Positions 14,569 through 56,176 of a stretch of DNA of 64,000 nt are shown piece after piece. The notes beneath the pieces are model-generated. The model did not search any database. It was given only the letters and a program-made list of their open reading frames with translations, and was not told the DNA's origin. The position numbers and the translations under genes were made by a program. Position 1 is the first letter of the stretch, and every line of letters starts with the position of its first letter. This DNA is from Tachypleus tridentatus (lineage: Eukaryota; Arthropoda; Merostomata; Xiphosura; Limulidae): contig NC_134825.1 in the NCBI RefSeq assembly GCF_004210375.1, positions 40,852,348 to 40,916,347 of the forward strand, written 5' to 3'.

Positions 14569-15592
<1,024 letters not shown>

Positions 15593-19700: not shown

Positions 19701-20386
19701 ACTAAACTACACAGCTGATTATCTATACTTAGTAATAATGTATTAGGTGAGAAAAATTGCGATTGTAATTAAAATAGATTGTTTCAAAATAATGAAAACA
19801 AACAATTTGAAATTTACCAGATGCCACATTATTTAGAAGTCATTGCATAACTTCCCTCTGCATGAATATACGTTTGTGAGTATTACATGTTAGATACTTT
19901 ATTAATACGAAAATTTTCCCTTTAACATTTCTAGAAAGTTATTATTATCTAGCATTATATTAGTACAGTTAAAATGTGCCAATATAAAATGTGAGTTAAA
20001 CAATTTGATCTTATACAGATTTATGTAAAACCTTTCTCAACGTCTTTTAACCACAAAATATACATGATACGTTTGCAGAAATACTTGTACTGATTTAAAA
20101 GCTGAAGTGAATAGGATAGGATAGCTTTTTATCAGCTCGATAACAAGAGTCTTTGTTCGGTATGAATTACTAATATAATTGATAAACAAGTCTTATCTTC
20201 ACAGTTCAGTGTTCAAACATTTGGCTTATTAAAGCAAAGTAACAGGACTGGCTATAGTTTTGTAATTATTGATGTGGTTTCCGTTTGTTTTTTTCGGTTG
20301 TCATGTAATATTTCAGTAACCTCTAAACAGTTTTAGTAACGTTGTTAACGTTATCATCTCCAATATTACGTACATTCTTAACATTT
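16721..20386. other. Unassigned intergenic DNA
   Basis: The longest frames are 16841-17131 (minus, 96 codons, hydrophobic start) and 19116-19454 (plus, 112 codons, rich in I, Y, F and begun by a non-ATG codon). Neither shows a known domain or a reliable splice or promoter context. No repeat family recognised over 3.6 kb. Confidence 0.5.
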
Positions 20387-21090
20387 GTGTTGTATAACTA
20401 GTTCAGACAAATACTTAATACCATTTGTGTTGTAGAACTAGTTCAGACAAATACTCAATACTATTATTTGTGTTGTAGAACTAGTTCAGACAAATACTTA
20501 ATACTAATTGTGTTGTATAACTAGTTCAGAACAAGACAAATACTTAATACCATTTGTGTTGTAGAACTGGTTCAGACAAATACTTAATACTATTATTTGT
20601 GTTGTAGAACTAGTTCAGACAAATACTTAATACTATTTGTGTTGTAGAACTAGTTCAGACAAATACTTAATACCAATTGTGTTGTAGAACTAGTTCAGAC
20701 AAATACTTAATACTATTTGTGTTGTAGAACTAGTTCAGACAAATACTTAATACTATTTATGTTGTATAACTAGTTCAGACAAATACTTAATACTATTTGA
20801 GTTGTAGAACTAGTTCAGACAAATACTTAATACTATTTGTGTTGTAGAACTAGTTCAGAACAAGACAAATACTTAGTACTATTTGTGTTGTATAACTAGT
20901 TCAGACAAATACTTAATACTATTTGTGTTGTAGAACTAGTTCAGACAAATACTTAATACTATTTGTGTTGTAGAACCAGTTCAGAACAAGACAAATACTT
21001 AGTACTATTTGTGTTGTATAACTAGTTCAGACAAATACTTAATACTATTTGTGGTGTATAACTAGTTCAGACAAATACTTAATACTATTC
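20387..21090. repeat. 40-bp minisatellite, 17 copies
   Basis: Unit of about 40 bp containing GTTGTAGAACTAGTTCAGAC followed by AAATACTTAATACTATTT. The ACTAGTTC-type core occurs 17 times. Variants: TATAAC for TAGAAC, and a 6-bp AACAAG insertion after GTTCAG in copies 4, 12 and 15. Copies 12-14 and 15-17 share the same series of variants, so the array has partly grown by three-unit blocks. 40 is not a multiple of 3 and stops occur in every frame, so it is non-coding. Confidence 0.95.
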
Positions 21091-31284: not shown

Positions 31285-44638
<13,354 letters not shown>

Positions 44639-47375: not shown

Positions 47376-47875
47376 NNNNNNNNNNNNNNNNNNNNNNNNN
47401 NNNNNNNNNNNNNNNNNNNNNNNNNNNNNNNNNNNNNNNNNNNNNNNNNNNNNNNNNNNNNNNNNNNNNNNNNNNNNNNNNNNNNNNNNNNNNNNNNNNN
47501 NNNNNNNNNNNNNNNNNNNNNNNNNNNNNNNNNNNNNNNNNNNNNNNNNNNNNNNNNNNNNNNNNNNNNNNNNNNNNNNNNNNNNNNNNNNNNNNNNNNN
47601 NNNNNNNNNNNNNNNNNNNNNNNNNNNNNNNNNNNNNNNNNNNNNNNNNNNNNNNNNNNNNNNNNNNNNNNNNNNNNNNNNNNNNNNNNNNNNNNNNNNN
47701 NNNNNNNNNNNNNNNNNNNNNNNNNNNNNNNNNNNNNNNNNNNNNNNNNNNNNNNNNNNNNNNNNNNNNNNNNNNNNNNNNNNNNNNNNNNNNNNNNNNN
47801 NNNNNNNNNNNNNNNNNNNNNNNNNNNNNNNNNNNNNNNNNNNNNNNNNNNNNNNNNNNNNNNNNNNNNNNNNNN
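47376..47875. other. Assembly gap, 500 N
   Basis: Exactly 500 unknown bases, probably a fixed-size placeholder. It may hide the final PRKX exon. Open frames that run through it are not real. Confidence 0.99.
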
Positions 47876-47982
47876 CCTCACAGTTTGTGCCATACCTGCG
47901 AAAAAACACATCAGGGATTTTGGACATCAAAGCACCAACACTAAAACAGTTATGTTAACAATTATCTGCCTACACAAACATG

Positions 47983-54848: not shown

Positions 54849-55164
54849 TTAAAAAAATCGATTTCTCCATTTATCATATTTTATCTCAAATTGTACTTTC
54901 CATTTCACTTGACATTAAAGAATGTATTTGGTAAATATCTATTTATTAATTTAAAATAAGAAGTAATCACACATTTATAGATTTTTTTTTAAATTTTATT
55001 ATCATCATTTACAAGGATTTAGAAATCGTAGGGAAATATATATATGTATGTGTAAAGAGGACGTTATGGATAAGAGGAATATAGGATAATCTCTGATGAT
55101 GTTTTTCAGGGTAACAACATCAGCACTTTGCATCTAGCAAAATAAGAAAAAAGGAAGAATTAGA

Positions 55165-55250
55165 ACACAAACCTAGATATATATATACATATTAGAACAC
55201 AAACCTAGACATATATATATGTATATTAGAACACAAACCTAGATATATAT
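55165..55250. repeat. Three copies of a 30-bp unit
   Basis: TTAGAACACAAACCTAGA followed by a variable (TA)n tract, three times. It lies downstream of the peptide gene. Confidence 0.9.
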
Positions 55251-55502
55251 AACATCACTGAAACAATTTTAATATTAATTTTATTCTTGTAGTAAACTTC
55301 AGCCTCTTTATTGAGGGAAACATAAACTGCAGTTCATAAAATTTAGCTCAGTTTATAGTAAAATAATTCTTAAAACCTTATTTAAATATATATATATATA
55401 TTCACTTGTACAAGAGATAGATAAATACTGACATTGTTCTGAAAGACAAAAATATAAAAGCACTGTATTACTATGTTATTTTCGGTATAGTTACCTGTAA
55501 GT

Positions 55503-56097
55503 TTAGAAATAATATGGATAGCCATAGTGACGAAGTCCGAAATAGGTGGGAGCGTATTTATAGTTGTAACTGTAGCTGTGACCATAAGGATAACCCCCGT
55601 AGTATCCACCGTAGTAATGGCCAATATGGTAAGGATGGCGGTAACCGGCCAAAGCGGTTGCGACCAGTGCCAAAAACAAGATTGCAAACTGTAATAAAGC
55701 AAAATAAACAGTATCTAAATCAAAAGCTTATTTCATGAGAATATAACGTTTTTATTCAGTGTAGCCATTTTTTTTTTGAAAATGTGAGTCCATATTCAAA
55801 CAGTTTTCTGTTATCCAGAGCTTTTAATCTCATTCTGTTGTAGCATTGTAGCAAGTTAACTTAATGTTACATTTATAATAGCTCATTTTAAGTGCTTGCT
55901 TTCTAACATCACAAACTTAGAGTAAATATTTATTTTGTAAATCCATCTAAATTGATTTTAATACGTTTAACAAATAAAATACAGATGATAAAACGAAACA
56001 TTTATGTTGGTTGGTTGGAATATACTAGGACTAAAAAAGGTTCAATAGGCTTAACTTTTATTGAAACGTTGACTAATAAACTTACCACAGTCTTCAT
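55503..56097 (-). CDS. Gly/Tyr-rich small secreted peptide, two exons, 65 aa
   Basis: Exon 1 (56097-56086) is ATG AAG ACT GTG, followed by the donor GTAAGT. Exon 2 (55688-55503) follows the acceptor TTTGCTTTATTACAG and ends in TAA. The joined product has 65 residues. It begins with a signal peptide, MKTVFAILFLALVATALAG, with likely cleavage after A-L-A or A-L-A-G. The mature chain of about 46 residues is almost only Y, G, H and P with a few R/K/S (HYYGGYYGGYPYGHSYSYNY, closing YGYPYYF) and has no Cys. Intron of 397 bp. A TATA box lies 71 bp upstream of the ATG. The composition and the MK-signal-intron layout fit small Gly/Tyr-rich cuticle proteins of arthropods, where Tyr can be cross-linked. 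Some Gly-rich antimicrobial peptides look similar, so the role is open. A decayed tandem paralogue lies at 51420-51601. Confidence 0.85.
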
Positions 56098-56167: not shown

Positions 56168-56176
56168 CTTTTATAC
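56168..56176 (-). promoter_or_regulatory. TATA box of the peptide gene
   Basis: The minus strand reads GTATAAAAG. A start site about 30 bp downstream would fall near 56,140-56,150, giving a 5' leader of roughly 45-55 nt before the ATG. This spacing supports the exon-1 call and suggests strong, regulated expression. Confidence 0.7.

Follow-up and report, generated by a model that had tools for sequence, protein, structure and literature searches.

Does the minus strand at 55503..56097 of this DNA hold a functional gene that searches for open reading frames pass over, and what would its product do? The locus lies in a window of 64,000 nucleotides, by which we mean the whole stretch of DNA that was analysed, itself part of a 2.17-Gb assembly. 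The original prediction, made from the letters alone, had proposed a hidden two-exon gene with a TATA box and a 397-bp intron, encoding a Cys-free, Tyr/Gly/His-rich secreted peptide of structural or metal-binding character and of no recognised family. Here we report that the two-exon gene is almost certainly real, as judged from sequence comparison, and that its reality and its secreted type are well supported: paralogues share its exon structure, and exactly the predicted frame appears to be under purifying selection.

Gene model and predicted product

The coding part of exon 1 (56086..56097, minus strand) comprises the four codons ATG AAG ACT GTG at 56097-56086, encoding MKTV. It is followed by a phase-0 intron of 397 nt (55689..56085, minus strand; GTAAGT...TTACAG), with the donor GTG|GTAAGT from 56085 and the acceptor TTTATTTTGCTTTATTACAG, and by exon 2 (55503..55688, minus strand), whose 61 codons plus TAA supply the rest of the signal peptide and the mature chain. 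A TATA box, TATAAAA, is located at 56175-56169 (56169..56175, minus strand) and starts 78 nt upstream of the ATG. Both exons, the donor, the intron and the acceptor were found by reading the sequence and by a script, which rebuilt the model with the identical 397-nt intron and a 65-aa product. The claim that other frames in the same DNA are longer also held, with overlapping stop-to-stop frames of 110 aa (minus) and 105 aa (plus). Annotation readily misses a gene of this kind, whose frame is opened by splicing alone and is overlapped by longer ones.

In addition to the elements first described, an intron may interrupt the 3' untranslated region (55134..55494, minus strand), with the donor ACAG|GTAACT 8 nt past the stop and the acceptor TTTTGCTAG, leading to a possible noncoding exon 3 (54980..55133, minus strand, lower end approximate) with AATAAA at 55000-54995. 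In the nine models a donor-like site follows the stop by 8-51 nt, and the nearest paralogue has it at exactly the offset of the window gene; the donor pattern applied was loose enough to give several hits per gene. The 3' intron is unproven and stays a proposal, because the search for third-exon homology between the C1 and C7 genes gave short chance-level matches only; if it is unused, the AATAAA at 55312-55307 could serve instead.

The rarity of the architecture was assessed with a scan that asks for ATG-AAR plus two codons, a GTRAG donor, an upstream TATA-like box, an acceptor, a hydrophobic core and no fewer than 45 codons. The window, searched on both strands, yielded a single model, whereas 60 second-order Markov sequences modelled on it without its 500 N, each 63,500 bases long, yielded none; as the scan's criteria were chosen after the gene had been seen, this is a check of rarity and not an independent discovery.

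If the signal sequence is cut after Ala18 (...ATALA|GYRHPY), the mature chain would comprise 47 residues (55506..55646, minus strand), with 17 Tyr (36%), 9 Gly (19%), 5 His, 3 Lys+Arg and neither Asp+Glu nor Cys, in agreement with the predicted composition; it has no Gln and one Lys. The signal peptide is recognisable by its Kyte-Doolittle hydrophobic core, a predicted helix and the A|G cleavage pattern, which is found in 9/9 family models. AlphaFold2, run on exon 2 alone as a single sequence and therefore weak evidence, placed a helix at residues 2-16 (pLDDT about 91) and nothing ordered beyond it (mean pLDDT 61), consistent with a biased, disordered mature chain that has no catalytic domain. 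Hmmscan against Pfam returned 0 families for the 65-aa product up to E 10; for three paralogues it returned none over the cut-off and one chance-level match (E 0.4) to a family other than PF00379. The single PDB match, to a putative transmembrane protein chain (E 0.43), was rejected as composition, and a search of a phage collection gave no match, as expected.

Paralogues and selection on the reading frame

The full architecture, a 12-nt first coding exon, a phase-0 intron, an exon 2 that completes the signal peptide and a Tyr-rich, Cys-free tail, was found at nine distinct places in the genome. A search with exon 2 listed four matches, namely itself, two further places on C1 and one weak match on C7 (E 1.8). 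When the protein of this C7 match served as query, twelve matches were listed. Nine of them fall into seven places of a cluster on C7 (139.49-139.69 Mb), two are genes on C1, and the last, on C4, is at chance level. Besides the window gene, the complete models are a 98% copy at C1 39.67 Mb, a neighbour paralogue 10 kb away at C1 40.918 Mb (MKIV, intron 399 nt), a His/Tyr-rich relative at C1 39.69 Mb (MKIL, intron 324 nt, 150 aa) and five C7 genes (MKTF or MKTL, introns 1020-1329 nt). At the other two C7 places (L035/L038 and L036) the model finder completed no model in the stretches examined. All nine models carry the intron after codon 4 in phase 0, and the introns of the other eight measure 324-1329 nt. 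The finder required a 12-nt exon starting with MK and so in part presupposed the common exon-1 feature; plain blastn, which makes no such requirement, also detected the neighbour's exon-1 region (85% over 41 bases). In the nine complete models a TATA-like box precedes the ATG by 78-108 nt; that of the neighbour is altered to TGTAAAA, and a further TATAAA occurs in this paralogue just 30 nt ahead of the ATG.

The His/Tyr-rich relative (C1 39,691,330-39,692,106; L018:7331-8107) has the TATA box, 12-nt exon 1 and split signal peptide of the window gene, and its 131-aa tail (23% Tyr, 20% His) consists largely of PHHHDTHKYY-like repeats of about 10 residues. A second such exon 2 (C1 39,684,516-39,684,761; L018:517-762) contains two in-frame TAG and looks like a dead copy. 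Other His/Tyr-repeat matches, on C11, C2, C5, C6, C9 and elsewhere among the matches listed (169), were set aside as composition-like, many of them with stops. The Gly/Tyr-rich paralogues at C7 139.49-139.69 Mb lie on both strands, and some are nearly identical (139.491 and 139.682 Mb). Because the cluster also adjoins a 500-N gap (L021), some of these copies may be assembly duplicates.

No family had been recognised when the gene was first described, and yet one does exist within this genome: the gene almost certainly belongs, on the evidence of these alignments and models, to a small horseshoe-crab family for short Tyr/Gly-rich secreted peptides. We did not find the family named in the titles and opening abstract lines surveyed on horseshoe-crab Tyr/Gly-rich or cuticle proteins, and a 2005 FEBS J paper on horseshoe-crab cuticular proteins may already describe relatives.

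Between the window gene and its neighbour, exon 2 is 74% identical and the intron 49%. Across 59 ungapped codons the two differ at 46 nucleotides, third positions accounting for 22, which gives dN 0.194 and dS 1.069 for exon 2 (0.188 and 0.955 with exon 1 included) and an omega of 0.18-0.20. Of the other five frames, one gave an omega of 0.37 and contains 31 stops; two free of stops gave 0.93 and 1.39, and the remaining two gave 1.61 (one stop) and 3.40 (three stops). When the changes were relocated at random, 17 or fewer amino acid differences occurred in 0/20,000 trials (1/10,000 with another seed), and about three quarters of such neutral rearrangements contained a stop. The mature part alone has 14 amino acid differences, as few as which arose in 8/10,000 neutral rearrangements; the signal part stands out less (343/10,000). 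The C7a-C7c pair has diverged too little for a verdict (995/10,000), and one recent C7 pair has dN 0.035 against dS 0.019, an omega of 1.85 on few changes. Most C1-C7 pairs were saturated at synonymous sites and gave no dS. These comparisons indicate that purifying selection acts on the stated frame, the mature part included, although pairwise averages cannot exclude brief positive selection.

That the frame arose by chance or belongs to a dead gene is extremely improbable: an exon-2 relative at C1 39.684 Mb (L041) does bear its two stops, but the window frame is open, has its splice sites and is kept against a paralogue at dS about 1, and the simulated sequences yielded no such model.

Proposed role in the cuticle and rival readings

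Composition, gene architecture and analogy suggest that the product is most likely a cuticle protein, small and unfolded, whose Tyr and His residues would serve in cross-linking. That a member of this family would be secreted and cross-linked in the cuticle matrix, or in some other hardened secretion, we consider probable, with appreciable room for doubt. The TATA promoter would drive transcription in secretory cells of epidermal type; once the 397-nt intron is spliced out, the peptide would be secreted and its signal sequence cut after about residue 18. The remaining chain of roughly 47 residues, over a third Tyr, with His and without Cys or acidic residues, would stay unfolded as a filler of the cuticle matrix or of a different hardened secretion, where oxidative cross-linking would fix it, with dityrosine or catechol-quinone adducts on Tyr and His as insect cuticle chemistry suggests.

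The structural role first suggested is plausible and fits the 12-nt first exon of cuticle-protein genes (PMC2259329). Among Anopheles CPR genes with introns, 86% have one in the signal-peptide region and the first coding exon has a median and mode of 12 nt, although, as the same paper notes, genes other than those for cuticle proteins can also have a short first exon. CPR genes further resemble the present family in their TATA box and in arrays of very similar genes (PMC2259329); unlike them, the 65-aa product lacks by hmmscan the R&R chitin-binding consensus (PF00379), and it thus falls outside the CPR family. No R&R cluster was found near the family: among the 150 matches listed (of 299 candidates) the nearest on C1 is 4.8 Mb from the family and the nearest on C7 about 1.8 Mb, and the short-first-exon architecture was not demonstrated in the flanks examined of five R&R loci.

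Low-complexity insect cuticle proteins, such as TcCP30 of Tribolium or the glycine-rich CPG proteins, share with the window product a signal peptide, a strongly biased chain thought to be disordered and the lack of an R&R domain. TcCP30 itself is Glu/His/Arg/Gly-rich, 171 aa long and encoded by a single exon (PMC4440208), whereas the window chain is Tyr-dominated and much shorter. Laccase2 cross-links TcCP30 in vivo (PMC4440208), a cuticle protein with 45% His has been cross-linked in vitro (PMC8062583), and conserved tyrosines recur in motifs of several families of cuticle proteins (PMC2932725); according to PMC2932725, how well low-complexity repeats predict a cuticle role has not been evaluated. 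Transglutaminase is reported to cross-link horseshoe-crab cuticle proteins (PMC2956697); because the chain has no Gln and one Lys, oxidative Tyr/His coupling seems the likelier route here.

The main rival to the cuticle reading is an antimicrobial role in epidermis or haemocytes, like that of the nematode nlp-29 cluster or of chelicerate glycine-rich peptides, which we regard as unlikely. The nlp-29 peptides resemble the window peptide in composition. They are likewise short, secreted and encoded by clustered genes, and the window peptide is Tyr/Gly/His-rich and weakly basic, though its net charge is small; a glycine-rich bioactive peptide has been reported from scorpion haemolymph (PMC6784228). 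Positive selection has been reported for the nematode cluster (PMC2453101), whereas the main pair here is under apparent purifying selection.

Slightly less likely still is a component of an adhesive, egg-envelope or silk-like secretion outside the cuticle. Other animals use Tyr/Gly-rich disordered secreted chains in just such secretions, but no sequence feature separates a protein of this kind from a cuticle protein. Tick glycine-rich proteins, which are chelicerate, cuticle-like and associated with cement, carry GGY/GYG repeats that seem to resemble the C7 members especially (PMC11772090). By the definition of a glycine-rich protein as one with at least 20% Gly (PMC11772090), the window chain (9/47, 19%) lies just below the line, the neighbour (10/48, 21%) just above it and C7a (19/55, 35%) well above; in contrast to the tick proteins, the window member is dominated by Tyr.

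A related and comparably doubtful idea is that one secretion module, the promoter with the split signal peptide, has been reused with varying Tyr/Gly/His tails to build an unusual catechol- or metal-hardened shell or adhesive matrix. The tails range from 47-residue Tyr/Gly chains up to the 131-residue His/Tyr repeat chain.

Metal binding, the other function first suggested, is very improbable for the peptide. The window copy has HxxHxxH, and the diverged relative at 39.69 Mb carries its His in repeats along the long tail; judged by eye, the spacing is not conserved, being HxxH in the neighbour and absent from the five complete C7 genes, and the window, neighbour and C7a chains have neither Cys nor acidic ligands.

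On the preferred reading, that of a cross-linked cuticle protein, the gene is of a kind already common in arthropods, and it adds a family of Tyr-dominated secreted chains to the horseshoe crabs; if confirmed, these short chains could be synthesized for tests of Tyr/His cross-linking.

Assembly context and other features of the window

A 500-N assembly gap occupies 47376..47875 of the window, and the contig that carries the gene starts at 47876. This contig is about 42.5 kb long and runs to C1 40,942,706, where a second 500-N gap follows (C1 40,942,707-40,943,206). Over most of the length compared, the contig matches C1 39.66-39.68 Mb as an inverted copy at 97-99%; the whole-genome comparison leaves out the last part of the contig (L015 from 5001, L020). 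Exceptions are a tandem array near the right end of the window (84-91%), a 0.9-kb piece that matches in the opposite orientation to the rest, and a 9.4-kb segment holding the neighbour gene, for which no counterpart was found at C1 39.66-39.68 Mb. The window copy may represent an alternative haplotype of the locus lying 1.2 Mb from it; alternatively, the two may result from a true duplication. This question affects the copy count; the reality of the gene is unaffected, because it rests on the neighbour and the C7 genes.

Elsewhere in the window, a protein kinase exon was found at 37053-37388 (plus strand; Pfam Pkinase, E 3.1e-28), which by eye is cAMP-dependent kinase-like. Frames at 14732-15220 (plus strand) and 32499-35371 resemble, by eye, a Tc1-type transposase and a retroelement reverse transcriptase, and a 40-bp unit is repeated in tandem about 17 times at 20383-21089.

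Among 14 control genomes the coagulogen family was found in 0/14 and the R&R family also in 0/14; there is probably no arthropod among them, and the control says little. In the assembly itself the Pfam coagulogen family has 19 places over the cut-off. Together with the alignments of two coagulogen exons, these identify the genome as that of a horseshoe crab, most probably Tachypleus tridentatus, in keeping with the original prediction's advice to search chelicerate proteomes. One coagulogen exon aligns at 48/48 residues to PDB 1AOC, which comes from Tachypleus tridentatus. A second aligns at 48/51; all three mismatches fall within its first five residues, probably because the query extends into an intron there.
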